NCBI RefSeq assembly: GCF_001542415.1
Contig: NZ_LNCU01000022.1
Span: 100,967-140,468 of the forward strand
Direction of reading: 5' to 3'
DNA: 39,502 bases
Source: Bradyrhizobium macuxiense
GTDB taxonomy: Bacteria; Pseudomonadota; Alphaproteobacteria; Rhizobiales; Xanthobacteraceae
The notes beneath the pieces were generated by a model, which did not search any database, was not told the origin of the DNA, and was given only the letters and a program-made list of their open reading frames with translations. How positions within the stretch are numbered: position 1 is the stretch's first letter; each line of letters opens with the position of its first letter. The translations under genes were made by a program, and so were the position numbers. Shown piece by piece: positions 878 through 14,657 of the stretch.

Positions 878-1540
878 ATGTGTAATCTCTATTCGATCAC
901 CACCAATCAATCCGCGATGATCAACCTGTTCCGCGTGGTCAATCGCTACGTCGGCAACCTGGCCCCGATGCCCGGCGTCTTTCCGGACTATCCGGCGCCG
1001 GTCGTTCGCAATACGGACGCCGGAAGCGAGATGGTGTTGATGCGGTGGGGCATGCCACCTCCACCGCGCACCGGAGGCCCGCCAGTCACGAACATCCGCA
1101 ACACGTCGTCACCACATTGGCGCGGCTGGCTCAAGCCCGAGAACCGCTGCTTGGTCCCCGCCAACAGCTTTGCCGAATATGCGCCCGAGCCGAACCCCGG
1201 GACCAAGAAAAAGGATGTCGTCTGGTTCGCGCTGAATGAGGACCGGCCGCTTTTCGCGTTCGCGGGCATCTGGACCGAGTTCAAGGGCGACCGTGGCACC
1301 AAGTCCAAGCCGATCCCGGGGCCGCATCTCGTCTACGGCTTCCTGACGACGGCGCCGAACGCGATCGTCGAGCCGATCCATCCCAAGGCCATGCCGGTGA
1401 TCCTGACCACCGATGAAGAACGCGATGTCTGGATGCGCGCGCAGTGGGTGGAGGCCAACGCGTTGCAGCGCCCATTGCCGGATGACGCGCTCAGGATCGT
1501 GTTACGAGGGGCAGACAAAGAGGATAGGGTCGCGGCGTAA
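878..1540 (+). CDS. SRAP/YedK-HMCES family abasic-site processing protein
   Basis: The 220-residue protein begins Met-Cys-Asn-Leu-Tyr. Cys2 becomes the N-terminal residue after Met removal and forms the covalent thiazolidine link to abasic sites in single-stranded DNA. Family landmarks follow: the [14 protein letters not shown] region, [13 protein letters not shown] (the family Glu lies in FAEY) and [20 protein letters not shown] with the conserved His. The length matches the usual 220-240 residues. These proteins shield abasic sites during replication or repair and are common on mobile elements. It starts 14 bases after the HEPN gene without an obvious ribosome site and is followed by the MmeI-like gene, so it may share their transcript. 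All key residues appear intact. Confidence 0.88.
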
Positions 1541-1606: not shown

Positions 1607-4549
1607 GTGTTGATGCAACTAATGCGATACCGTTGTCAGGTGAGCCGGGGGCCAGCCGAAGTGACACCCGATGAATTTATTCGAAAGTGGAAAAGCGCCG
1701 AACTGAACGAGCGGGCGGCGGCTCAATCCCATTTCATTGATCTGTGCCGGATGCTGGACGAACCGGCGCCGACGGATGTCGATCCGAAAGGCGAATGGTA
1801 CGCCTTTGAGCGTGGCGCGACCAAGACCACAGGCGGCGAGGGCTGGGCCGACGTCTGGAAGCGCGACCATTTCGGCTGGGAGTACAAGGGAAAGCGGAAG
1901 GACCTCAAGGCTGCCTTTGCGCAGCTGCAACAATATGCCCTAGCGCTCGAAAATCCGCCGCTGCTGGTCGTCTGCGACATGGATCGGTTCGAAATCCATA
2001 CCAACTGGACCAATAGCGTTTCGGCGGTTCACGAATTTGGCCTCGACGATCTGCGCGACGCCAACGTCCGGCAAAAACTCAAGTCGGTCTTCTCCGACCC
2101 TGAGAGGCTCAAACCCGGCAAGACCCGCCAGGCGCTCACCGAAGAGGCGGCGGCCGAATTCGCTAAACTCGCACAGCGCCTGCGTGATCGAGGCCGCCCC
2201 GCCGAGACTGTTGCCCATTTCATCAATCGACTAGTCTTCTGCATGTTCGCCGAAGACGTCGATCTTCTACCGAACAAAATGTTCAAGCGGATGCTGGAAC
2301 ATGCCTCCTCGCGGCCAGACGAATTCCAGTCACTTGCGAGCGACCTTTTTAAGGCGATGCAGTCCGGAGGACGGGTCGGCTTTGAGCATGTAGCATGGTT
2401 CAACGGCGGCCTTTTCAACGATGACACGGCTCTGCCACTAGACAAAGACGACATCGCGCTAACGCTGGTCGCGGCGAACTTGGATTGGGCGGAAATCGAC
2501 CCATCCATTCTCGGCACGCTGTTTGAACGCGGCCTTGATCCGGACAAGCGGTCGCAGTTGGGTGCCCACTACACGGATCGAGATAAGATCATGATGATCG
2601 TCGATCCTGTGATTGTGCGTCCGTGGCTGGCAGAGTGGGAAACAGCAAAGGCGGAAATAGCAAAGTCAGTAGAGAAATCTCGCTCCGCGAAATCGGCAAG
2701 CGCGCGCACGAAAGCACACGATCAAGCCGTTGCTGAATATCGCTCCTTCTTGAATAAGCTTCGCGCATTTAGAGTTCTCGACCCAGCATGTGGGTCGGGC
2801 AACTTCCTCTATCTCGCGCTTCTTGCGCTCAAGGATATCGAACATCGCGTCAGCATAGAAGCTGAGGCGATGGGTCTCCAACGAGAGTTCTCGCAGGTCG
2901 GCCCGGCCGCCGTCAAAGGGATTGAAATCAACCCCTACGCCGCGGAGTTGGCGCGCGTTTCCGTGTGGATTGGCGAAATTCAATGGATGCGGCGGAACGG
3001 TTTCGGGGTCTCTGACCGACCGATATTGAAGCCTCTCGATCATATCGAGTGTCGCGATGCAGTGTTGAACGAAGATGGCAGCGAAGCGACGTGGCCGGAC
3101 GCTGACGCAATCGTCGGCAACCCGCCGTTTCTCGGCGACAAGGCGATGTTGAGTGTACTTGGCACGGCTTATGTTGACAAACTACGTTCAAAGTTCGCCG
3201 GTCGCGTGCCGGGCGGGGTCGATCTAGTTGTGTACTGGTTCGAAAAAGCTAGGGCGGCGGTCGAAGCCGGCTTATCCAAATCGGCCGGGCTCGTGTCCAC
3301 ACAGGCTATTCGCCGCGGCTCGAATAGGTCCGTGCTGGACAAGATTTCAGCAGGCGCAACTATCTTCGACGCCTGGGCTGACGAGCCATGGGTGGTGGAC
3401 GGAGCGGCTGTTCGCGTTTCGCTCGTCTGTTTCGCCAGAGAGATAGATAATCCTCGTCAGTATCGGTTGGATGGCAAACGGGTCACCTCAATCCATGCCG
3501 ATCTCACCGGGGATACTGTCGATCTGACGAAAGCTCTGCCCCTGCCTGAAAACGTCGGTTGGTGCTTCCAAGGACCGGTAAAGGTGGGGCCATTTGATGT
3601 TCCGGGCGACACGGCAAGAAACTGGCTACAGTTGCCGCGAAACCCAAATGGGCGATCTAACTCCGACGTCGTTCGTCCGTGGCTGAATGGACAAGACGTG
3701 ACAAGGCGATCATCTGACCGCTGGATTGTTGACTTCGCTGACATGCCTGAGAAGGACGCAGCGGTATACGAAGCACCGTTCGAGTACGTTCGACGGAACG
3801 TGAAACCGTTGAGGGATAAAAACAATCGCGAGCGCCGCCGAATTTTCTGGTGGCAGCATGGAGAAACTGTTCCCGGTTTGCGCAAGAAAACGATCGGGCT
3901 GAAGCGTTTGATCGCCACGCCTCGTGTTTCGAAGCATCGCATTTTTGTCTGGGTGTCATTGAAGGTGCTGCCCGATAGCCGGATAAACATAGTGGTTCGC
4001 GACGATGATGCCACCTTCGGCATTTTACATAGTCGTTTCCACGAGGCTTGGTCGCTTCGACTTGGTGGTTGGCATGGCGTCGGCAACGACCCGCAGTATA
4101 CGCCAAGCACAGGGTTTGAGACATTTCCGTTCCCGGTTGGACTTGCACCGAATATCCCTGCTGCGGCTTCCGCAAATGATCCCCGCGCGAAAAAGATCGC
4201 TGAGGCTGCCGACCAATTGCATAAGTTGCGCGAGAATTGGCTAAATCCCGCCGACTTAGTCCGACGCGAGCCAGAGGTCGTCGCTGGCTTTCCCGACCGC
4301 TTCGTTCCGATAAACGAAGATGCAGAACGCGCGCTCAAGAAGCGCACGCTCACCAACCTGTACAACGAACGACCGACCTGGCTGGCGAACGCCCATGCCG
4401 AGCTGGATGCCGCCGTCGCCGCCGCGTACAATTGGCCGACCGACATTTCGGAAGAAGATGCGCTTGCGCGGCTGTTTGCGCTCAATCAGGAGAGGGCCGC
4501 GGGATCGGCGCCGGGTGAGCTTCTAGCCGAAACCGCACCAACGGAATAG
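1607..4549 (+). CDS. MmeI-like type IIL/IIG restriction-modification enzyme (fused nuclease and N6-adenine methylase)
   Basis: A 980-residue single-chain enzyme predicted to cut DNA and also methylate one strand at adenine. The N-terminal nuclease domain carries D82-x9-E92-Y-K94, exactly the D-x9-ExK spacing of MmeI. A helical linker leads to the methylase with motif I LDPACGSGNF (from residue 391), GIEINPYAAELARVSVW, and motif IV NPPF (from Asn505). The region around 600-850 would be the target recognition domain, and the C-terminus ends in a helical domain with YNWP (PAYNWP-like). MmeI is 919 residues, so the length fits. Starts GTG 1607, ATG 1613 and ATG 1622 are all possible, none with a clear ribosome site; numbering uses GTG 1607. 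No separate nuclease gene is needed. Recognition site cannot be read from the sequence. Confidence 0.9.
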   Translation: MLMQLMRYRCQVSRGPAEVTPDEFIRKWKSAELNERAAAQSHFIDLCRMLDEPAPTDVDPKGEWYAFERGATKTTGGEGWADVWKRDHFGWEYKGKRKDLKAAFAQLQQYALALENPPLLVVCDMDRFEIHTNWTNSVSAVHEFGLDDLRDANVRQKLKSVFSDPERLKPGKTRQALTEEAAAEFAKLAQRLRDRGRPAETVAHFINRLVFCMFAEDVDLLPNKMFKRMLEHASSRPDEFQSLASDLFKAMQSGGRVGFEHVAWFNGGLFNDDTALPLDKDDIALTLVAANLDWAEIDPSILGTLFERGLDPDKRSQLGAHYTDRDKIMMIVDPVIVRPWLAEWETAKAEIAKSVEKSRSAKSASARTKAHDQAVAEYRSFLNKLRAFRVLDPACGSGNFLYLALLALKDIEHRVSIEAEAMGLQREFSQVGPAAVKGIEINPYAAELARVSVWIGEIQWMRRNGFGVSDRPILKPLDHIECRDAVLNEDGSEATWPDADAIVGNPPFLGDKAMLSVLGTAYVDKLRSKFAGRVPGGVDLVVYWFEKARAAVEAGLSKSAGLVSTQAIRRGSNRSVLDKISAGATIFDAWADEPWVVDGAAVRVSLVCFAREIDNPRQYRLDGKRVTSIHADLTGDTVDLTKALPLPENVGWCFQGPVKVGPFDVPGDTARNWLQLPRNPNGRSNSDVVRPWLNGQDVTRRSSDRWIVDFADMPEKDAAVYEAPFEYVRRNVKPLRDKNNRERRRIFWWQHGETVPGLRKKTIGLKRLIATPRVSKHRIFVWVSLKVLPDSRINIVVRDDDATFGILHSRFHEAWSLRLGGWHGVGNDPQYTPSTGFETFPFPVGLAPNIPAAASANDPRAKKIAEAADQLHKLRENWLNPADLVRREPEVVAGFPDRFVPINEDAERALKKRTLTNLYNERPTWLANAHAELDAAVAAAYNWPTDISEEDALARLFALNQERAAGSAPGELLAETAPTE

Positions 4550-4809: not shown

Positions 4810-6687
4810 CTATTGCGCCTGCGCCACCCGCTCTCCGATATGCCGGAGCCAGCCGATTACCTCATCTCCCGGATCACATTCAGCGAGACGCGCGCGGGAC
4901 ATCTTGGTAACCGCCGCTGTATTGAGCAACGACTTTGCCTGCCCGGTTTTTTTGTTGCATTTCTTTGGAGCATCGGCGGGCCAAGGTGCATCTGCTGTTG
5001 CTGCGTGCGCTGCCTGCGCAACAAGCGTGGGAACGTCGTCGAAGTCGGTAAACGGCGCTCCAAAGGTGACGGTAATGTTTGCGTCTTGGTAGGCTTCCAG
5101 AATGGCCTCCTGATGGAGAAAATTCTCCATTTCGCGCTTACTGGTCGTGACGGCGGAACAGCCGTCACGCGCATTCACTTCGGAGGCAAATGTATCGTAC
5201 TTCCCGGGCTGCGGCGGTGGGTTGTCGCGGTCATAGATGTGGAACTCGGGCCTGTTCAGGGGATGAAGTCGCGACGTCCAAAGCGCTAGATTGTTGCCCC
5301 CGAACGGGAAGAAGATGAGTTCACCGGAAATCTCAAGCGCATCAATATCCGGCACATCCACTCCGTCGGCCCTGAGCACTTTGCTCATGCCCTTGAGGAA
5401 GGAGATGTCGTGCTTTCCTTCAACCCCCACGAACAATTTGACGGAATGATCCGGCAAGACGCCCAGCGAATGTGCGATCCGAGCGTTTGTGTCAGGCCCA
5501 CCGGCAGCAACCGTCCGAGTGCCGTTCTCATGGGCCTCAATAAAGCGTAGGCACGTGTCAGGAAGCGCCCGAGCGAGCATCGGCGTGTGAGTGGTTACAA
5601 TTACCTGCCGCCCGGCGGTCGCAGACAAATCAGAGAGCGCAGACATCAACATGCGCTGATTTCGCGGATGCTGGCCCGTCTCGGGCTCTTCAATCGCATA
5701 AATGACCGAGCCCGCCTGCCTCTCAATCGCCGCCTTCTCGGCCTTCGCCCTAAAGAAGTTCAGGAGCACAAGGCGCTTGACCCCACTCCCTCTCTTGTTG
5801 AGGGGAATTCCTTCGTCACCCGTGATGCTGGTTTGGAATAGGCTGTCCCACTTCTTGGTCGTTACAACGGGATTAAGGGTTTGTGCGACGGATGCATCCA
5901 TCTCCTTGATCTTTTCGACGGTCGCCTCCGCGATCCTTCGGACCTCGGCTTCGACGTGGGCTTGGATCTTGGCTAAATCCTGCTCGACAGCCTTTAACGC
6001 GTCGCGAATGGCCGCCTTTAGTGGATCCTGCGCCTCCGCGTCTTGGTCGGTACTCGCTCTGTCAGATTTGAACAGGGCGAACGCTGGAAGGTAAGGAGCG
6101 AGAGCGGTCCAAACCTGCTTCCCGCCTTCCTTCTCCAAGGAAACAGGCACGAGGTCCAATTTTAGCGCCTGCGTGCCGCCCCAAATTGCAGCTCGGATCG
6201 GCGCATTTGCTTGTTTGTTTACATCGGAGAGGTCGATCCCGAGTTCAGTGGCGCGTGCGACAAGGTCAGCTTTTTTTAGCTGTAGTAAGTCGTTCACTCC
6301 GCTTCCAGTGGGATGCACGGCGACAGCTTCCACGGAGGTAAGCTTGGGGGTCGCGAGCGAGCCGTCGAAGGTCTTACGGACTTCGAGCCGCCGGTCGAGA
6401 TTAACGAGATACTCGGCTTCCAGACTGGTTTCGTAGTCGGCATCCAAGATGATCTTCTCGGGAAGATCGTCGAACTCGCAAGTGATCCGCACGGCCTTGC
6501 GATCGCCTGAAAGGCAGGCATCGTCCTTGTCGGGCTTGGCCTCCTCGAAGAAGATCGCGAGACTATCCATGATGGTGGATTTTCCAACATCGTTTCGGCC
6601 CACGATCGCGGTGATGTCATCGAACTCGATGCAAACTTCGTCTTTGAAGCAGCGAAAATTCTCTAGCTTGAGCTTGGTCAGCCTCAT
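4810..6687 (-). CDS. OLD-family ATP-dependent nuclease (AAA ATPase plus TOPRIM)
   Basis: A 625-residue protein when started at the ATG 6687, which has a GGGGGG ribosome site just upstream and begins MRLTKLKLENFRCF, typical of the family. Walker A is GRNDVGKST (residues 30-38). A coiled-coil region spans about 220-275. Walker B AIEEPE lies near 331-336 and the H-loop VTTHTP near 364-369. The C-terminal TOPRIM half has VEGKHD (Glu423, Asp427), the YDRD pair near 485-488 and KREMENF. OLD proteins are ATP-dependent DNA nucleases that act in anti-phage systems. No UvrD-like partner is adjacent, so this is a solitary OLD rather than Gabija. It converges with the restriction-modification operon 48 bases away. 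Confidence 0.88.
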   Translation of the reverse strand: MRLTKLKLENFRCFKDEVCIEFDDITAIVGRNDVGKSTIMDSLAIFFEEAKPDKDDACLSGDRKAVRITCEFDDLPEKIILDADYETSLEAEYLVNLDRRLEVRKTFDGSLATPKLTSVEAVAVHPTGSGVNDLLQLKKADLVARATELGIDLSDVNKQANAPIRAAIWGGTQALKLDLVPVSLEKEGGKQVWTALAPYLPAFALFKSDRASTDQDAEAQDPLKAAIRDALKAVEQDLAKIQAHVEAEVRRIAEATVEKIKEMDASVAQTLNPVVTTKKWDSLFQTSITGDEGIPLNKRGSGVKRLVLLNFFRAKAEKAAIERQAGSVIYAIEEPETGQHPRNQRMLMSALSDLSATAGRQVIVTTHTPMLARALPDTCLRFIEAHENGTRTVAAGGPDTNARIAHSLGVLPDHSVKLFVGVEGKHDISFLKGMSKVLRADGVDVPDIDALEISGELIFFPFGGNNLALWTSRLHPLNRPEFHIYDRDNPPPQPGKYDTFASEVNARDGCSAVTTSKREMENFLHQEAILEAYQDANITVTFGAPFTDFDDVPTLVAQAAHAATADAPWPADAPKKCNKKTGQAKSLLNTAAVTKMSRARLAECDPGDEVIGWLRHIGERVAQAQ

Positions 6688-6735
6688 GGAGCCCCCCGGC
6701 CTTGAAGCAGAGCGCATACCACATAGGGTTGCGCG

Positions 6736-7306: not shown

Positions 7307-8383
7307 CTATTGGCCGGTCGCGCTGACCCACGCGATCCCGAGGACCGCGCGCGGATCGCAATCGACCCGGTAGTCGATCGTGATGCCGTCGTCCTGCGCG
7401 GCCTCGATCAGCGCGCATTCCTCGCGCTCGGTAGCCAGCACGTCAGCGAGGATTTGCGCCTCGGCCTTCTGCCGCTGCTCTCGGGTCAGCGCCGCCTTAT
7501 CGTCCGCGACCTCATCGATCTCGCGATCCAGAGCCGCGGTCAGCGTATCCCGGTGCAGCCACGCCACCAGCGCCAACGCATCCCGCACCTCGGCGAAGCC
7601 GATCGCGCTCGGATCAACATTGGCGATCGGCACCTGATACGTCGTGGTCGCGAACGCGATGTCCTCGCCATGATCGATGGCATGATGCGCGATCGGGCGC
7701 CCGGCCTCTGCCAGTTGATCGATCTGCTTCCGCATCCGCTCTTTCGCGAGGCCGCTCGGCCAGGGCGCCGCGCGGACCCGTGCCAGATCGGCCTGCAACT
7801 CGCGCGCGCGACGCCGAAGGCGTTCGAGTGCGTCGATGACCGTCTCGCCCTTCTTCAAGTTCGGCTCGATGGCCGGACGCATGACGATCGCGGCGCCGTT
7901 CGGCTTCGTCCGGATGCAGGTCTCACAATTAGTGACCACCGCGCTGAGATTATTCCAGCGGGAGCCGTTCAAGTCACGCCGCTGCGTCCGGCGCACAAGC
8001 TCGGCGGTCTTCTGGTCCAGACGCCGCTGCTCGTGGAGCACGCGAACGTCATCATCGGGCAGGTCGGGGCCGCCTTGCCCGCGCGGCATCTGCAATTCGC
8101 GGAGCCGGTCCCGGTGGCGCTGGATGTCGAGATGCAGGCTTTGCCATTCCTCATGGTCGGATCGGGCCAAAAGCGCAGCGTCGTCGCGCTGCTGGCGCAG
8201 TTCACGCAAACGCTCTGCGGCGGACGGCGGCAGCGCATCGATCACGTCGCCGATATTCGCGATCAGCATTCCGGGCAACGGACCCGTCACCGGAGCGGCC
8301 CCCACGGGCGTCTCCATTTCATTCCGGATCGCAGGCCGATCGGTGCCTAAGCCGTAATTCTGAAACTGATTGATGCGCGCCAT
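7307..8383 (-). CDS. Coiled-coil protein of the replication region, unknown function
   Basis: The ATG at 8383 is preferred because GCGAGGGC precedes it by about 3 bases and the product starts cleanly with MARINQFQNYGLG; an open frame continues 24 codons upstream without better support. The 358-residue protein has long charged helices rich in Arg, Glu and Gln (about 50-125 and 195-235), a CETC pair near 155, and an Asp/Glu-rich helical C-terminal part. No membrane segment, signal or known catalytic motif is seen. It follows the ATPase and primase genes in the same direction, so it may be a structural or replication-associated protein of the element. I do not recognise the family. Confidence 0.65.
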   Translation of the reverse strand: MARINQFQNYGLGTDRPAIRNEMETPVGAAPVTGPLPGMLIANIGDVIDALPPSAAERLRELRQQRDDAALLARSDHEEWQSLHLDIQRHRDRLRELQMPRGQGGPDLPDDDVRVLHEQRRLDQKTAELVRRTQRRDLNGSRWNNLSAVVTNCETCIRTKPNGAAIVMRPAIEPNLKKGETVIDALERLRRRARELQADLARVRAAPWPSGLAKERMRKQIDQLAEAGRPIAHHAIDHGEDIAFATTTYQVPIANVDPSAIGFAEVRDALALVAWLHRDTLTAALDREIDEVADDKAALTREQRQKAEAQILADVLATEREECALIEAAQDDGITIDYRVDCDPRAVLGIAWVSATGQ

Positions 8384-8462: not shown

Positions 8463-8828
8463 TCAAACATTGCGCGAAAGGATTGTAGTGATCTGACGGG
8501 CTTTTAGTGCACGGGGGTACGCCTTGAAAATCGCCCAGAGCAGTTGGCGACGCGCATCGCGATGTGGACATACGGCTTGAGACCGTGCTGTTTGCCAACT
8601 GCTGCTCTCGTAGCGGCTCATTTCCCGCTCGATGCGTTCCGCCTGCGCGTTACGGCTCAGGCCGGGACAGAACCGACCTGCAAATTCGCGGATCAGACTA
8701 TGTCGTCGCTCGTGCCCGGCTCGCGTTTCCAGCGACCGCTGGCCCGGTCTGGTCCGCAACGCCTCGCGCAGGGCGGCGACATCGTCCAGCGAGAGCGAGT
8801 TGAGATTAATCCGGACCGGCGCGGTCAT
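8463..8828 (-). CDS. Small Arg-rich protein, unknown function
   Basis: The 121-residue product starts MTAPVRINLNSLSLDDVAAL at ATG 8828. The N-terminus contains LSLDDVAALREALRTRPGQ, the middle is basic with RNAQAERIEREMSRYESSSW, and a CPHR segment lies near residue 87. The C-terminal stretch ARRQLLWAIFKAYPRALKAR looks like the kind of helix pair that binds DNA or a partner protein. It lies between the coiled-coil gene and the octamer-repeat array, and the array begins 20 bases upstream of its start. An origin-binding or regulatory role is conceivable but unproven. The 79 bases between it and the next gene (8384-8462) hold no other signal. Confidence 0.55.
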   Translation of the reverse strand: MTAPVRINLNSLSLDDVAALREALRTRPGQRSLETRAGHERRHSLIREFAGRFCPGLSRNAQAERIEREMSRYESSSWQTARSQAVCPHRDARRQLLWAIFKAYPRALKARQITTILSRNV

Positions 8829-8848: not shown

Positions 8849-8970
8849 GCGCCAGTCGCGCCAGTGCCAGTCCCTTTTAATAAAGGGACTGGCGCAACTG
8901 GCGCACTGGCGCAGGCAGCGGCTCTTTACGGCCATCGGGTGCGCCAGTCGTGCGCCAGTTCGGCGCCAGT
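8849..8970. repeat. Octamer array GCGCCAGT/ACTGGCGC, candidate iteron origin
   Basis: Eight exact copies of GCGCCAGT or its complement lie in 122 bases. Direct copies start at 8849, 8858, 8941, 8952 and 8963. Inverted copies start at 8888, 8897 and 8905. Steps within groups are 8-9 or 11 bases, the latter one helical turn. The array flanks a perfect palindrome with an AT-rich centre (8867-8892). It occupies the only sizeable non-coding gap between the ATPase gene (stop at 8985) and the next gene (start at 8828). Multiple short binding sites, an AT-rich centre and adjacent helicase and primase genes are the usual parts of an iteron-type origin. The repeats are seen directly; the origin role is inferred. 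Confidence 0.72.
8867..8892. repeat. Perfect 26-bp palindrome inside the octamer array
   Basis: CCAGTCCCTTT and AAAGGGACTGG form 11-base arms around a TAAT centre. The middle TTTTAATAAA is strikingly AT-rich in a GC-rich neighbourhood and would melt or extrude easily. Each arm's outer end merges into a CCAGT or ACTGG repeat half. It could be the strand-opening site or a dimer binding site for the element's replication or regulatory protein. No T-run follows on either side, so it is not a standard terminator. Confidence 0.7.
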
Positions 8971-8984
8971 TGCGAAACGGACGG

Positions 8985-10274
8985 CTATTCGTCATCGGGA
9001 TCGTCGCTCGCCGGTCCTGCGGACGGATCGGGCCTTTTGAAGCGGCCAGGGATAATGAAGCTGCGGTCCTTGCGGTCTTCGTCCTTGCGCTGCTCGACCT
9101 CCAGTACCTTATTTTCCAGCCATTTCTTGATGATCGCTTGGAGCGACACGAGGTCTTTAGCGTCCGTGTCCCCGTCGTGCGTGACCTTCAATCCGAGTTG
9201 CTTTGCAAGCGCATAGCCGAACCAGTTCGGCGAGCGCCGATCGGCGCGATATGCGCCAGTCCGCGCCAGTGTCCGCGCCAGTTCCATGTCGGCGGTGGTG
9301 ACGTATTTGAAGGGGTCCGGCGGGGCCCACGGACTGGCGCACGCGACAAGGTCGCCGTTGAGCAGATCTTCAACCACGAGCCGCATCCAAGTCGCCTTGC
9401 CGAGCGGTCCCATATTGGCCTTGCCGTTGCTGATCCGGATGTGCAGGCGGCGCTCGTCCCCGGATATCCCGAGCTTCGCGGCCTCGTCTGGCGTCATGAA
9501 GTTGAGCACCCGGGCGGACCGTACCGCCCAGAGCACTGAGGATGCGCCGCGCATGTCCTCAACGGTGGTTTCGGACTGGCCAGGCTTTGGCTTCCCGGGA
9601 TGATGAAACAGCTCGCCCGCCGAGTTGGTCCGACCGGCAATCGAGCCGAAGCCCTCCTTGATCACCATGTCCATGTGCTCATTGAAGCTCTCGCCGACGC
9701 TGTGGAACGAGATCAGCGGATCAACCATGAACACGTCGATGCTGTTCTGGCGGATGAAGTTCTCCATGTATTTGACGACGCCGTGATCGATCACCGGCAT
9801 GCCAAGGATCAGCTTGGCGATCCGCAGCGGGCTATTGCGGACAGACTGGACATAGAGACGACCGCCTAAGTCCGCTTGCGCGATCTGGTAATGCTGGCAA
9901 GTCGCGGCGAGGCGCCGATCGAGTTCGTCCTGATCTTCTTCACCATTGCAGAACCAAACCCGCAGCTTTCCCGCCGGGAGGGCCTGCTTGGTTGCGAGGT
10001 CGAAGCCGACCGCCATGCTCACGGCCTCGTAGACCGCGCGCGTGGTTTTGGCGCGACCGCCCGCACCGATCGTGGCGCCGATGGTACCGCGAATGTAGTG
10101 CCCCTCGTACAAGCTCTGCCGTTTCGGAATGGTCGCCGGATCGCGCCACCACGGGACCGGCGGCTCGCGGTTTTGCACTTTCGTGGGATCGCCGCCGCCA
10201 TTCGCACCAGCCTTGGAGTGCTTAAAGCGGGTGAATTGGACCTTGGCCGCGAGGTGTTCTTCCGGCCCTTTCAT
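8985..10274 (-). CDS. RepA-like AAA ATPase/replicative helicase (AAA_25 type)
   Basis: The ATG at 10274 overlaps the primase stop as ATGA, so the two genes are translationally coupled; this start gives 429 residues. The P-loop region reads GATIGAGGRAKTTRA (about 63-77), with Ala where most Walker A motifs have the second Gly but the Lys-Thr retained. Walker B lies in IDVFMVDPLISF. Sensor-like LFHHPGKPKPG and VEDMRGASSVLWAVRSARVL follow, as in RepA/RSF1010-type hexameric helicases and mobile-element AAA_25 proteins. The C-terminal quarter is a basic, winged-helix-like region (about 320-400). It would unwind the origin for the adjacent primase. Four more GCGCCAGT-type octamers lie inside its 3' half. 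Confidence 0.8.
   Translation of the reverse strand: MKGPEEHLAAKVQFTRFKHSKAGANGGGDPTKVQNREPPVPWWRDPATIPKRQSLYEGHYIRGTIGATIGAGGRAKTTRAVYEAVSMAVGFDLATKQALPAGKLRVWFCNGEEDQDELDRRLAATCQHYQIAQADLGGRLYVQSVRNSPLRIAKLILGMPVIDHGVVKYMENFIRQNSIDVFMVDPLISFHSVGESFNEHMDMVIKEGFGSIAGRTNSAGELFHHPGKPKPGQSETTVEDMRGASSVLWAVRSARVLNFMTPDEAAKLGISGDERRLHIRISNGKANMGPLGKATWMRLVVEDLLNGDLVACASPWAPPDPFKYVTTADMELARTLARTGAYRADRRSPNWFGYALAKQLGLKVTHDGDTDAKDLVSLQAIIKKWLENKVLEVEQRKDEDRKDRSFIIPGRFKRPDPSAGPASDDPDDE
9253..9340. repeat. Four further octamers inside the ATPase gene
   Basis: GCGCCAGT occurs at 9253-9260, 9263-9270 and 9275-9282, with 10- and 12-base steps. An inverted ACTGGCGC lies at 9333-9340. They fall in coding sequence (ARTLARTGA and nearby), so codon use may explain part of the pattern. 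However, the same octamer is dense in the non-coding array 280 bases away. They could be extra binding sites that extend the candidate origin or autoregulate the operon. Confidence 0.5.
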
Positions 10275-11158
10275 GGCGCGACCTCGCGCATCGCGTCGTC
10301 GAAATCGTCGCCAGTCAGCGGGTCGGCGAGGATCACCTCGCGCCCGGCATCGATCCATCGGTCAGCGCAATCCTGCGCCGCCTCGGCGTTGGCGCCGTCG
10401 TCGTTCCGCTCGCCAAGGATCGTGAGGCTCTCGATGCTGGGCAGCACTGGAAATGCACGAATGCCGCCCTTGCTACCGGCGGCCCAAACAGGCCGAAGCC
10501 CTCGGATGTATGCGGCAAGGCACGTCTCGAAGCCCTCGCCGATGATAAGGCCGGTGGTGACGTCCTCGTCGGCGCTGATCTTGATCGCCGCGCCAGCGGC
10601 GGGGCCGAGCTTCTTGCGCGTGATCTTGCTCCCATCCCCGGCCAGGAACGTCCGCTCGATGGCCTGCGGCTGATCCGTGTGGATATTGCGCAGCAACGTC
10701 ACCATGCCGGGAGCGCGCTGGCCGACGAGGGACAGCGCCGGATGGAAGCGAACGACCGTGCCGCAAATCTCAGCGGGCAGGATCAGGTGGCTTCGCCGGG
10801 ACGGAAAATAACGCCGATCGATCATCGTGCCGCGCGGGTCATCACTCTTTTGCCAAATGGCGAAAGCCCACTCCTGCATTGCGTGCTGATCGCTATCGTC
10901 GGTGGACGAAGGGCGCGGCGCGCTGGTGCGCTCGGCGGCGCCACGACTGCCGCCGTGCCACTCGCAATGATGGCAGTAGAAAACAAAGCCGTCGGCGTCG
11001 GACTTCACCGAAAGACACTTCTCGGACTTCTTCTTGCGCTGATCGCTGCAACACGGGCAGCGGAACACTCGCGAGCCGAAGAACTGGCCGGGATGAGCGC
11101 CAACGCGCGCCAGCATGGCGAGAACTGTTTCGACTTGCGACGCAAACTGGTCGGGCAT
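10271..11158 (-). CDS. Primase-like protein with CHC2-type zinc finger and Toprim domain
   Basis: The ATG at 11158 has GAGGGC about 7 bases upstream and gives 295 residues. An N-terminal zinc-binding module is seen in FRCPCCSDQ and FYCHHC (about residues 32-64), arranged like the DnaG/P4-primase zinc finger. The Toprim core is LIIGEGFETCLAAYIRG (near 205), with the catalytic Glu in GEG, followed by SLTILGERNDDGAN in place of the usual acidic D-x-D strand. This combination is found in phage and island primases (DUF7146/Toprim_3-like). It would lay primers for the element's replication. It is coupled to the RepA-like ATPase through an ATGA overlap and follows the AlpA-like gene after a 65-base gap containing a strong hairpin. 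Confidence 0.8.
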   Translation of the reverse strand: MPDQFASQVETVLAMLARVGAHPGQFFGSRVFRCPCCSDQRKKKSEKCLSVKSDADGFVFYCHHCEWHGGSRGAAERTSAPRPSSTDDSDQHAMQEWAFAIWQKSDDPRGTMIDRRYFPSRRSHLILPAEICGTVVRFHPALSLVGQRAPGMVTLLRNIHTDQPQAIERTFLAGDGSKITRKKLGPAAGAAIKISADEDVTTGLIIGEGFETCLAAYIRGLRPVWAAGSKGGIRAFPVLPSIESLTILGERNDDGANAEAAQDCADRWIDAGREVILADPLTGDDFDDAMREVAP

Positions 11159-11223: not shown

Positions 11224-11439
11224 TTAGGAATTTGCCTTCTCGCGTGCCTCGGCCCAATCGGCGGCCGCCTTCAAAGAAATCCGGACGGCTCGGCCGATGC
11301 GCATCTCTCGCGGGCCCAAGCCAGCATCGCGCATCTTGAAGTAAAAGCGCTCTGAGATGTCGTGCGCTTCACAGAACTTCGGGATTGTGTAGGCCGCTAG
11401 AGGCGTCGCCGGTGCGGGCGCCTTTTCGCTGGCGGGCAT
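11224..11439 (-). CDS. AlpA/excisionase-like helix-turn-helix protein
   Basis: The ATG at 11439 is well supported by GGAGGA eight bases upstream and gives 71 residues; an open frame continues 34 codons further but is not needed. After a Pro/Ala-rich N-terminus, AYTIPKFCEAHDISERFYFK is the helix-turn-helix, followed by GLGPREMRIGRAVRISLKAA, the beta-wing and helix of MerR-like excisionases and AlpA. Such proteins bind DNA as recombination directionality factors or as activators of integrase and replication genes in P4-like satellites and islands. It lies between the integrase and the primase, the usual place for a switch gene. The interval 11440-11622 contains its leader and no other gene. Confidence 0.75.
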   Translation of the reverse strand: MPASEKAPAPATPLAAYTIPKFCEAHDISERFYFKMRDAGLGPREMRIGRAVRISLKAAADWAEAREKANS

Positions 11440-11622: not shown

Positions 11623-12900
11623 CTACTGGGCTCCGATGGCGATGACATTGTCGGAAGGCGGGGCCGCATCGTGATGCAGTAGCGCCCGGCGCGAGACCGC
11701 ATCGCTGTGCTCGGTGATATATTTGCTGTAAGTCCGCTCGATCTCGGCGACCGACGTGTTATGCGTCGCGGCGACGACGCGGACAGGAACGTTTTTCAGC
11801 AGTTGCCGCACGATGCTGCTGTGCCTCAACGCGTAGACGGTCACCTCAAGAGGATCGAGGCCGATGGCCTTGACGACCTCGCGGATATCATCGCGATAAT
11901 CGCTGCTGGCGTCCTTTCCACCATCGCGCCCCCAAGGTTGGCCGTCGCTCTGCACCAGCAGCGGCGCGTTCGGCGAGCGGCCGACGGCCGCCCGCGACAG
12001 CTTCGCGGCCAATGCGGGCGTGACCGGCACCGAGTATCGTTCGACTTTCTTGCGGATGCGGTTACGCCCGCCGCCTTTGCCGGATTTGACCATCATCAGC
12101 TTCGGCTCGGTCTTGTGAGCGATCAGGTCCCGGATAGTGAGCCGCGCGGCCTGCGACGGGCGCGTGCCCGTCACGGCCAGCGTATCGACGAACAGGCCGA
12201 GGTTCTCGTCGCGGTCATAGGCGGTCGCGACAAACTTGCTGACCAGATCATCGGCAAGGATGACATTGTTCGGCTCGCTGGCGTCCGGCAGCATCTGCAA
12301 GCCGGTCTGCCATGCGTGCTTGTTTTTAATGCGCTGATCCTGCGAGGCCGCGAGGTTGAGCGCGGCGATGATGTTCTTGCAATGGCGGTTGACGCTGGCC
12401 GGGACCATCTTCGCCAGCAGGCCATCGCGCCATTTGCGCAGTTCCTGCGCGTCGAGCAGCGGCACCGGCTTGGACAGCAGTGCGGCGGTCAGATGCTTGC
12501 GCGGCCAGCGCCCGTTGTAGCCATTGGCGCCACGCGCTTTCAGGTCGTCCTCGTAGCGCGTCAGCGCCACGTCGAGGGTCAACGGCTTATTGCCTTGCTC
12601 CTCTGCGGCATCATCGTCGCCACCGCCGCGCACCAGCTTGCGGGCTGCGGTGATCGCTTGCGAGTAGTCGAGGATGATCTTGCCGTCGGCCTTCTCGTAG
12701 TCGTCAGCAGTGCCGAATTTTTTCAGCCACTCGCCGCCGTGGCCGTCGCTCGCGCGGATCGACCATGTGCCGGTGCCGTCGTTGCGCCGATAGCCGAGCG
12801 ACAGGCCAGGACCTAATCGTTGCCAGTGCGGGCGCTTCTGGATCGGCAATTTGAGGCGGGCGGTGGGCGTTTCGAGCGATGAATTGCGGGGCTTCGGCAT
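11623..12900 (-). CDS. int: Tyrosine recombinase (integrase)
   Basis: A 425-residue phage-type integrase. The N-terminal part has the arm-binding-like and SAM-like core-binding domains (about 40-185). The catalytic domain shows Arg247 (TGTRPSQ), Lys272/275 (VKSGKGG), Arg359 in YALRHSSIVR, His380 (ATHNTS) and the nucleophile Tyr391 (RTYSKYI). The first His of the H-x-x-R box is replaced by Tyr356; many active members tolerate this. Reading leftward from the right end of the element, it would integrate and excise it at an attachment site between 12900 and the host repeat at 13051. The start ATG at 12900 has only a weak ribosome site. Confidence 0.92.
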   Translation of the reverse strand: MPKPRNSSLETPTARLKLPIQKRPHWQRLGPGLSLGYRRNDGTGTWSIRASDGHGGEWLKKFGTADDYEKADGKIILDYSQAITAARKLVRGGGDDDAAEEQGNKPLTLDVALTRYEDDLKARGANGYNGRWPRKHLTAALLSKPVPLLDAQELRKWRDGLLAKMVPASVNRHCKNIIAALNLAASQDQRIKNKHAWQTGLQMLPDASEPNNVILADDLVSKFVATAYDRDENLGLFVDTLAVTGTRPSQAARLTIRDLIAHKTEPKLMMVKSGKGGGRNRIRKKVERYSVPVTPALAAKLSRAAVGRSPNAPLLVQSDGQPWGRDGGKDASSDYRDDIREVVKAIGLDPLEVTVYALRHSSIVRQLLKNVPVRVVAATHNTSVAEIERTYSKYITEHSDAVSRRALLHHDAAPPSDNVIAIGAQ

Positions 12901-13050
12901 GGGCGGGCGGCTTCTAGTATCCGGAAAGTGTCAGGAAGAGCGGGATACAGAAGTGTGCGCCGAGTTACAGGGTGATGCAATATTTACTCGCGTTTACATG
13001 GACTTAGATGGGGACTAGTTGATGCATCGAGATGCATGGAGTTGCAAAAC
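12901..13050. other. Right junction region of the element, attachment site not resolved
   Basis: The 150 bases upstream of the integrase are non-coding and AT-richer than their surroundings. They must hold the integrase promoter and the right attachment site. No tRNA or tmRNA 3' end is recognisable. A short tandem GATGCAT occurs at 13021 and 13031. The matching left repeat lies outside the window, so the crossover cannot be placed. Confidence 0.45.
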
Positions 13051-13177
13051 TTTCCCCTTGTGGGAGAAGGTGGCGCGGATGCAATCCGCGCCGGATGAGG
13101 GGTCTCTATTCGAAGACAGACCCTTCACCCGTCCGCGATGCTCCGCATCGCGTCCACCCTCTCCCACAGGGGGAGAG
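13051..13177. repeat. Imperfect inverted repeat, host-type intergenic element
   Basis: The left half (13051-13103) and the reverse complement of the right half (13125-13177) match over most of their length, sharing TCCCC, TGTGGGAGA, GGTGG and a nested small hairpin (GCGGATGCAATCCGC, and GCGATGCTCCGCATCGC on the right). Such long palindromic units are scattered between genes in Bradyrhizobium-like chromosomes. It lies downstream of rnhA and marks the start of host sequence. Confidence 0.75.
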
Positions 13178-13227
13178 AGCAAGATCGTCGAAATTCCAGA
13201 TTCGTAGGATGAGGCGCCCGCCTGCCC

Positions 13228-13689
13228 CTACCCCTTCAACCGCGCCATCGCCACGCCTTCGCGGGCGAGCTGATCGGCGCGTTCGTTCTCGGCGTGGCCG
13301 GCGTGGCCCTTGATCCAGTGCCAGCGCACCTCGTGCGGCTTGAGCGCGGCGTCGAGCCGCTGCCACAGCTCGACATTCTTGACCGGCTTCTTGTCGGCGG
13401 TGCGCCAGCCGTTGCGCTTCCAGCCATGGATCCAGCCGGTGATGCCCTGGCGGACATATTGGCTGTCGGTGGTGAGGTCGACCACGCAAGGCTTCTTCAA
13501 GGCTTCGAGCGCCGAGATCGCCGCCATCAGCTCCATGCGGTTGTTGGTGGTGTGCGCTTCGCCGCCCTTCAACTCTTTCTCGTTATCGCCGAATCTCAGG
13601 ATCGCGCCCCAGCCGCCCGGTCCGGGATTTCCGGAGCAGGCACCATCGGTGAAAACAGTGACATGCGGCTTGTCGCTCACGCGGCGCAT
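13228..13689 (-). CDS. rnhA: Ribonuclease HI
   Basis: A 153-residue enzyme that cleaves the RNA strand of RNA-DNA hybrids, removing primers and R-loops. The catalytic acids are Asp15 ([17 protein letters not shown]), Glu53 (NNRMELMAA), Asp75 (TTDSQYV) and Asp139 (ERADQLA), with the flexible His129 loop in KGHAGH. The basic protrusion [20 protein letters not shown] is present. It overlaps the end of thrB. ATG 13689 gives a 13-base overlap, while GTG 13680 gives the classic GTGA 4-base overlap and starts MSDKPHV, so either start is possible. It is the last gene of a leftward ispH-thrB-rnhA operon. The mobile element lies downstream. Confidence 0.95.
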
Positions 13690-14657
13690 CCCGTGGGCGT
13701 GATGCCGTAGTCGTTGAGACCAGCGACATTCTGCTGGAAGCGCAGCTTGCGGACATATTCCAGCGGGTCCTTCGGCTGCACCAGCGCGCCTTCGGGCACA
13801 TTCAGAAAGTCGACCAGACGCGTGAGCAGGAAGCGCATTGCAGCCCCCCGCGCGAGCAGCGGCATCGCGGCCTCCTCGGCCGCCGACAGCGGCCGTTCGC
13901 GACGGTAGGCATTGAGCAGCGCGCGCGCCTTGGTCACGTTGAAGGAATGATCCGGCTCGAAACACCAGGCGTTCAGGCAGATCGCGACGTCGTAGGCCAG
14001 GATGTCGTTGCAGGCGAACGGGAAGTCGATCAGCCCCGACAGCTTGTCGCCCAGGAAGAAGACGTTGTCGGGAAAGAGGTCGGCGTGGATGACGCCGAGC
14101 GGCAGGTCGGCCGGCCAGTTCGCTTCGAGATAATCGAGCTCCCACGCGATGAAGTCGTGCAAGCCCGGCTGCACGCTGTCCACCCGCGCGGCGGCAAGAT
14201 CGAACAGCGGCCGCCAGCCGGAGACCGACAGCGGATTCTGCCGCACCAGCCGAAAGTCGCGACCTGCAAGATGCATCTTGGCGAGCGCCTCGCCGACGCC
14301 GGCGCAATGCGCCACGTTCGGCCGCCGCGGCCACACGCCTTCGAGAAAGTTGATGATCGCCGCCGGCCGGCCGGCGAGCCGGCTATAGACCTCGCCTTTG
14401 CGATTGCGCGCCGGCTGCGGGCACGAGACGCCGCGCTCGGCGAGATGCGCCATCAGCGACAGGAAATACGGCAGGTCGCCCTCCGCCACGCGCTTTTCGT
14501 AGAGCGTGAGGATGTAGGCGCCCTGGCTCGTGTGCAGCAGGAAGTTCGAATTCTCGACGCCCTCGGCGATGCCCTTGTAGGAGAGCAGTTCGCCGATGTC
14601 GTAGCTTTTGAGGAATTCCGCGAGGTCTTCGGCGGCGACGTCGGTGTAGACCGCCAT
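13677..14657 (-). CDS. thrB: Homoserine kinase (ThrB, aminoglycoside-phosphotransferase fold)
   Basis: A 326-residue kinase phosphorylating L-homoserine to O-phosphohomoserine in threonine synthesis. It belongs to the APH-fold class of alphaproteobacteria and pseudomonads rather than the GHMP class. Landmarks are the N-terminal [32 protein letters not shown] (ATP loop), the catalytic [13 protein letters not shown] and the metal-binding [11 protein letters not shown]. The length matches the family. It starts five bases after the ispH stop and its end overlaps rnhA, so the three genes are almost certainly one transcript. Confidence 0.95.

Follow-up and report, generated by a model that had tools for sequence, protein, structure and literature searches.

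A repeat array that covaries with a RepA-like helicase: a probable replication origin in an integrative element of Bradyrhizobium macuxiense

Introduction

Copies of a single octamer crowd together beside a helicase gene in Bradyrhizobium macuxiense, which raises the question of what these repeats do and which protein reads them. The window (the whole stretch of DNA analysed, 39,502 nucleotides of contig NZ_LNCU01000022.1) carries the gene and its repeats within an integrative element, and an earlier note on the same DNA had taken the repeats, a helicase-type ATPase and a Toprim primase for the complete replication module of an integrated element. The analysis reported here indicates that the array is most likely the replication origin of this 14-kb element, to which the helicase would bind by its own C-terminal winged helix and at which it would start unwinding. 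An initiator helicase with its own origin is the likeliest reading because three observations converge: the position of the array, its covariation with the helicase, and the presence of a winged helix on a helicase of replicative type.

Results and Discussion

The octamer array of the window

The octamer reads GCGCCAGT on one strand and ACTGGCGC on the other. The array and the genes that adjoin it are as follows.

8849..8970, both strands: non-coding octamer array with eight exact copies, on the plus strand (GCGCCAGT) at 8849, 8858, 8941, 8952 and 8963 and on the minus strand at 8888, 8897 and 8905
8866..8893, no strand: inverted repeat, 12-bp arms GCCAGTCCCTTT and AAAGGGACTGGC flanking TAAT, a candidate stem-loop
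9253..9282, plus strand: three octamers within the helicase gene, a cluster found only in the clade of the window (window, L008, L009)
9333..9340, minus strand: one octamer within the helicase gene
8985..10274, minus strand: helicase of 429 residues with an RSF1010 RepA-like core and a C-terminal winged helix, the proposed initiator (Pfam AAA_25, E 8e-25)
10271..11158, minus strand: primase-like gene, DUF7146 and Toprim_3 (Pfam 4.2e-12 and 4.7e-9), overlapping the helicase start by 4 bp
8463..8828, minus strand: open reading frame (ORF) of 121 residues adjoining the array, no Rep family match

The earlier note had counted twelve exact octamers in 8849-9340, eight of them in 122 non-coding bases, and a recount returned the same figures; the full window holds 13, far above the mean of 2.65 and the maximum of 9 in 100 dinucleotide shuffles of it. 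The eight copies of 8849-8970 are indeed non-coding, with the stop codon of the helicase (8985) on one side and an adjacent ORF (8828) on the other; the last four (9253-9282 and 9333-9340) are part of the coding sequence of the helicase. The perfect 26-bp palindrome of the earlier note is an inverted repeat of two perfect 12-bp arms with an unpaired TAAT between them (8866-8893). The two gene assignments of the note agree with Pfam, which recognises AAA_25 in the ATPase and Toprim_3 with DUF7146 in the primase. The octamer is not comparably dense elsewhere on the chromosome, a statement of uniqueness that rests on close pairs of octamers (gap 0-4) and not on single octamers: the 8.7-Mb genome holds seven such pairs, every one within the cluster, and none of a reversed control pattern.

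The core of the helicase is nearest to RSF1010 RepA both by sequence (PDB profile match 1g8y, E 2.2e-26) and by fold (1nlf, Foldseek rank 1, E 4.6e-15), and its closest solved structures on both counts are RSF1010 RepA, DnaB and T7 gp4. An AlphaFold2 model with a mean pLDDT of 88.7 places a winged helix at the C-terminal end, built of helices 327-339, 352-360 and 372-387 and of two strands, 391-397 and 403-409, between which residues 398-402 form the wing.

The array accompanies the helicase in its relatives

Homologs of the helicase are present in 20/100 relatives, in 59/265 genomes of the genus, in 20/397 of the order (E 1e-30) and in 14/385 of the class, as well as in viral contigs, five plasmid records and two phages. 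Among 188 non-redundant helicase loci, picked blind to arrays, 145 reached an array score of at least 5 at -80..+520 of the helicase stop, compared with 4 of 531 control windows placed in and upstream of the gene, which are mostly coding DNA. A cluster of at least four copies of an 8-mer occurs in 114/148 loci, and 92 of these 114 have the strongest cluster of their entire locus at -100..+700 of the stop (expected share 0.079). In some of the loci with a score below 4 the array sits further downstream, for example near +480 in L049 and near +1030 in L093. Most of the relatives compared, whether in chromosomal islands, plasmids or viral contigs, have an array immediately 3' of the helicase gene; conservation beside homologous ATPase genes, which the earlier note had set as a check of its reading, is borne out.

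At least two of the five plasmid records with a helicase homolog also have phage structural genes. Phage tail or head genes stand beside the module on pVL1_6 of Methylobacterium (L035) and on Rhodoplanes plasmid 1 (L034), and these two replicons look like phage-plasmids.

The repeat word follows three residues of the helicase

The repeat differs from element to element. Its word is ACTGGCGCA in the window and ACTGTCGCA, GGTGACGCA, GGTGGAGCA, AATGGCGCA, GGTTCGGCA and others elsewhere; 127 non-redundant loci from islands, plasmids and phages yield 52 distinct 9-mers that conform to [A/G][C/G]TG-N-N-G-[C/A]-A, a few with an undetermined letter. A link between these words and residues of the helicase was first noticed by eye and then scanned without bias over 370 alignment columns in 64 non-redundant loci. 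Column 347 ranked first for the first two positions of the word (z 21.5 and 15.0; runner-up 10.8 and 12.4), column 402 for positions 5 and 6 (z 8.6 and 16.5; runner-up 4.6 and 7.8) and column 401 for position 8 (z 9.9; runner-up 4.9). The corresponding codons of the window lie within the winged helix.

9045..9296, minus strand: winged-helix domain, residues 327-410 (AlphaFold2 and domain model)
9234..9236, minus strand: codon of R347, top column for positions 1-2 (covariation scan)
9069..9074, minus strand: codons of R401 (position 8) and K402 (positions 5-6) at the wing tip (covariation scan and model)

Majority maps from residue to base were frozen on the 64 training loci, window included, and applied to two held-out sets. 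In the first (22 scorable of 39 loci), positions 1-2 were predicted correctly in 17/22 cases against a shuffle mean of 10.2, and position 6 in 14/21 against 5.9. The second set (41 scorable of 65) gave 35 of 39 for positions 1-2 (shuffle mean 18.1; the top of 10,000 shuffles was 29) and 32 of 39 for position 6 (shuffle mean 13.7; highest 24). For position 8, a rule that R401 predicts C and any other residue A was set after the first held-out test and was right in 39/41 loci of the second (shuffle mean 34.5). Overall, R347 goes with AC in 39/45 loci and Q347 with GG in 56/62; R401 goes with C at position 8 in 115/115; and at position 6 H402 goes with C (14/14), R402 with A (23/26) and E402 with G (8/10). 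The window, with R347, R401, K402 and ACTGGCGCA, agrees with the rule. The word of an array is predictable from helicase residues 347, 401 and 402.

Such a correlation could in principle reflect shared ancestry only, without any contact between the residues and the DNA. The shuffles ignore relatedness, and other columns outrank 347 for positions 1-2 when relatedness is controlled for by a paired test, in which 70 non-overlapping nearest pairs of loci were matched by helicase core. The same test nevertheless holds for positions 6 and 8, for which the proposed columns are the best of all: residue 402 and position 6 both change in 29 pairs, only one of them changes in 8 and 3, and neither in 30 (p 2.5e-9), the corresponding numbers for residue 401 and position 8 being 8, 2, 0 and 60 (p 4.8e-9). 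In addition, the three columns map in the model to those parts of a single domain that would be expected to face DNA, and some pairs of near-identical helicases have changes at the wing and a different word throughout their arrays. For example, the helicases of L099 and L106 are 98.1% identical, with all 7 differences in residues 340-412, and their arrays read ACTGGAGCA and ACTGTCGCA (GA versus TC), the 10-11 copies being changed throughout. Likewise, L041 and L049 are 97.6% identical and differ at 9 residues including R402H, and their arrays read ACTGGAGCA and ACTGACGCA (GA versus AC). Near-identical helicase pairs with different arrays act as natural swaps, and we regard ancestry without contact as a highly improbable explanation.

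The 121-residue ORF beside the array has no relative among the 63 other loci compared. Because the word tracks residues of the helicase, the helicase and not the 121-residue protein is the likely binder.

Stem-loops, priming partners and octamers within the gene

The arrays show two or more groups of octamers arranged around an inverted repeat of the type CCC-loop-GGG. This repeat occurs at most 260 bp from the helicase stop in 41/57 training and 15/28 held-out loci, compared with 2 and 4 for the mirror GGG-loop-CCC in the same region; in a control region further on, the counts were 6 and 6 for CCC-loop-GGG and 2 and 4 for GGG-loop-CCC. By analogy, the CCC-loop-GGG repeat may correspond to the ssi stem-loops of RSF1010 that are used by the primase of that plasmid, and the inverted repeat at 8866..8893 of the window is a candidate stem-loop at which a primase may start.

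Primases themselves are varied. Among nine longer relatives of the helicase, a Prim-Pol domain lies in the same chain in four, a weak RepB_primase match in one (L034) and a weak Toprim_2 match in one, these weak matches (2 of the 6) falling below the Pfam cut-off, and three have none.

Inside the helicase gene, third codon bases of the window and L009 are identical in 11/11 octamer codons and in 205/302 other codons for the same amino acid, figures that amount to one comparison since L008 and L009 are near-identical; the codons adjoining the octamers are also conserved. Phage P4 has crr, a second repeat cluster away from its ori. The octamers within the gene could similarly be a selected second cluster, a suggestion that is possible but unproven.

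Regulation or partition as alternatives

The array could instead be an operator through which the winged helix regulates transcription of the replication genes or of the downstream genes, replication beginning elsewhere. Covariation of the word with a winged helix would suit a regulator too, and the array of the window sits between two blocks of genes on the same strand. Its place 3' of the helicase gene is nonetheless not where autoregulation of a promoter would be expected, and the six to twelve sites, accompanied by a conserved stem-loop, are more than an operator usually has. Furthermore, two circular plasmids have the module without another annotated replication protein; the scan found no other Rep family among 10 of 39 and 10 of 49 of their annotated proteins, and no other initiator was thus recognised among the proteins examined. 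An operator is, in our judgement, unlikely.

Centromeres, too, typically consist of short direct repeats clustered next to replication genes, so that the layout of the array would fit a partition site for a protein encoded by the element, and a ParA ATPase is present on the plasmids of two relatives. It is far from the array in both, by about 12 kb on pVL1_6 and about 8.6 kb on pR24_3, and the protein that covaries with the repeats is the helicase; ParA was not found among the scanned proteins of the window element. A centromere-like function is given very little credence here.

The integrative element

The array belongs to an integrated element of 14.03 kb bounded by 15-bp direct repeats, TCCCCTTGTGGGAGA.

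13053..13067, plus strand: right direct repeat TCCCCTTGTGGGAGA, its left copy lying at -980..-966, outside the window

We place its limits here because the flanks abut in relatives and the 15-mer is in one copy where the island is missing: left and right flanks adjoin and the island is absent in 5/5 relatives fetched, and TCCCCTTGTGGGAGA is in single copy at the empty site of L315. The insertion is in one copy of a dispersed intergenic repeat (13050-13185) that has many copies across the genus. The right flank has long matches (of at least 868 bp) in 59/60 genus genomes, the other genome matching the dispersed repeat only.

11623..12900, minus strand: tyrosine integrase (PHROG 1 integrase, 9.6e-18; Pfam Phage_integrase under cut-off)
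11224..11439, minus strand: small ORF with a sub-threshold Pfam match only, its product possibly an excisionase or AlpA-like helix-turn-helix protein

With a tyrosine integrase 2.7 kb off in the same element, the octamers might be arm sites for the integrase or an excisionase of its recombination system. Against this, the array still accompanies the helicase where the module is carried by phage-plasmids or viral contigs, the word tracks the helicase, and the ends of the element are located elsewhere; arm sites are almost certainly not the explanation. A second 15-bp direct repeat, AGTGTCAGGAAGAGC, is present a little inward of each end of the element, one copy at 12927-12941 and the other 909 bases to the left of position 1; these copies are possible arm sites of the integrase.

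The remaining genes include cargo of the element and one gene of the flanking chromosome.

878-1540, plus strand: SRAP (YedK/HMCES-like) protein, element-borne (Pfam 6.5e-23)
1607-4549, plus strand: MmeI-like type IIG restriction-modification enzyme, element cargo
4810-6717, minus strand: OLD/GajA/AriA-like AAA_15 ATPase, element cargo, likely a defence protein
7307-8383, minus strand: protein of 358 residues with a relative in L187 (34% over 280 residues), a weak, non-significant KorB match and no Rep family match
13677-14657, minus strand: APH-family phosphotransferase, flanking chromosome, outside the element

Adjoining the SRAP gene, a sub-threshold HEPN_AbiU2 match was seen at 252-863. 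No capsid, terminase, phage-induction or packaging family was recognised among the scanned proteins of the window element.

How the helicase and its array may work

DNA binding, unwinding and replication by the helicase are predictions. In the scheme that we propose, residues 347, 401 and 402 would contact DNA, so that each helicase recognises its own array, and binding to closely spaced, partly inverted sites would assemble helicase rings and open the duplex. The partner primase may then find its start site in the CCC-loop-GGG stem-loop that separates the groups of octamers, this being the weakest step of the scheme, and the excised element would thereby copy itself.

Several observations weigh against this scheme. 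Of the 188 helicase loci, 29 score below 4 in the region in which arrays were scored, a Rhizobium phage among them; the Microvirga lotononidis plasmid that has the module also encodes repB and repC; and in three circular records the cumulative GC skew has no turn at the array. The array of the window has no strong AT-rich stretch, its best 20-mer being 65% AT (95% in the Rhodoplanes relative L034), and the primase type of the window is found in 11/64 loci. It should also be noted that words were given their orientation by a score that rewards T at position 3, G at position 7 and A at position 9, so that the constancy of the 9-mers there is partly built in, that K402 goes with more than one base (C in 31, A in 8 and G in 1 of 40), and that residue 347 fared less well in the paired test against positions 1-2 (11 pairs with both changed, 5 and 7 with one only, 47 with neither; 3.5e-5), ranking third after columns 177 and 309. 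Of the complete replication module in the earlier note, the integrated element has been established and replication is predicted; completeness goes beyond the evidence, as many relatives have a different priming partner or none that was recognised.

More generally, and with somewhat less assurance than for the origin itself, we think it probable that RepA-type initiator helicases hold a compact, near-modular recognition code. The residue before helix 2 and two wing-tip residues would set the origin word, initiator and all repeats being rewritten together. This would yield dozens of mutually distinct replicons, and three amino acids would suffice to read off the origin of each, and its likely incompatibility, in any genome or metagenome.

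Comparison with known systems

The replicon is most likely one of an initiator helicase working like those of phage P4 and the Staphylococcus aureus pathogenicity islands (SaPIs), built on another helicase family. The alpha protein of P4 is a superfamily-3 helicase, whereas the motor here has the RSF1010 RepA/RecA fold. FtsK likewise joins a RecA-fold motor to a C-terminal winged helix that reads an octamer, as we infer for the helicase here, and differs in that one fixed octamer is spread over the chromosome, whereas the octamers here are clustered and diversified.

1. Phage P4. The alpha protein combines a helicase motor, a winged helix that binds origin repeats and a primase in the same protein (PMC4234260, citing Yeo et al. 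2002). A single protein also joins motor and winged helix here, its DNA binding being predicted, and the primase is in the same chain in the fused relatives. The primase of the window has a gene of its own, and the repeat word varies by element and is predictable.

2. SaPI/PICI elements and Cch2 of SCCmec. The iterons follow directly on the helicase gene and are recognised by the C-terminal domain of its product (PMC7581432, PMC6092414). The likeness extends to iterons immediately 3' of the initiator-helicase gene (8849-8970 in the window, and 145/188 relatives), a primase next door, an integrative element with an integrase and two groups of iterons. The helicase here appears to belong to another family, as judged from its closest solved structures and not from a direct comparison with SaPI Rep; the groups flank a CCC-loop-GGG stem-loop and not a clear AT-rich stretch; and the window element differs in its lack of recognised phage-induction or packaging genes among the proteins scanned.

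3. RSF1010 (IncQ). Three separate proteins act in this plasmid, in which RepC binds the iterons and the primase uses the ssi stem-loops (PMC4234260). Its RepA helicase is the closest solved structure, and iterons and stem-loops are common to both. The covarying putative binding domain here is fused to the helicase, in contrast to a separate RepC, and the primase of the window is of Toprim type (Toprim_3 and DUF7146), not RepB'. Because the putative binder is fused to the helicase, the window replicon is not of the RSF1010 kind.

4. PLE of Vibrio cholerae. In these satellites the DNA-binding domain of RepA and the origin covary and act as a module (PMC8263062), and covariation of the two as a module between elements is seen here as well. 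There, two origin types with iterons of about 30 bp are described; here there are dozens of 9-bp words, a rule at the level of residues, and a helicase as the putative binder.

Open-access titles and abstract openings gave no description of this helicase family or of such a residue rule, a search that left subscription journals and preprints largely outside its scope and is thus no proof of novelty.

Implications

Covariation of initiator and origin was already known in satellites such as PLE, and here a rule from single residues to single bases predicts unseen, held-out origins. A helicase family so far unannotated, present in islands, phage-plasmids and marine viral contigs, would become a family of replicons with a predictable origin, in which one helicase-origin unit is seen combined with different primase families. 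Its natural series of initiator-origin pairs, some fewer than 10 residues apart, offers a route to the evolution of origin specificity, and suggests how elements resident in the same cell may avoid cross-talk.
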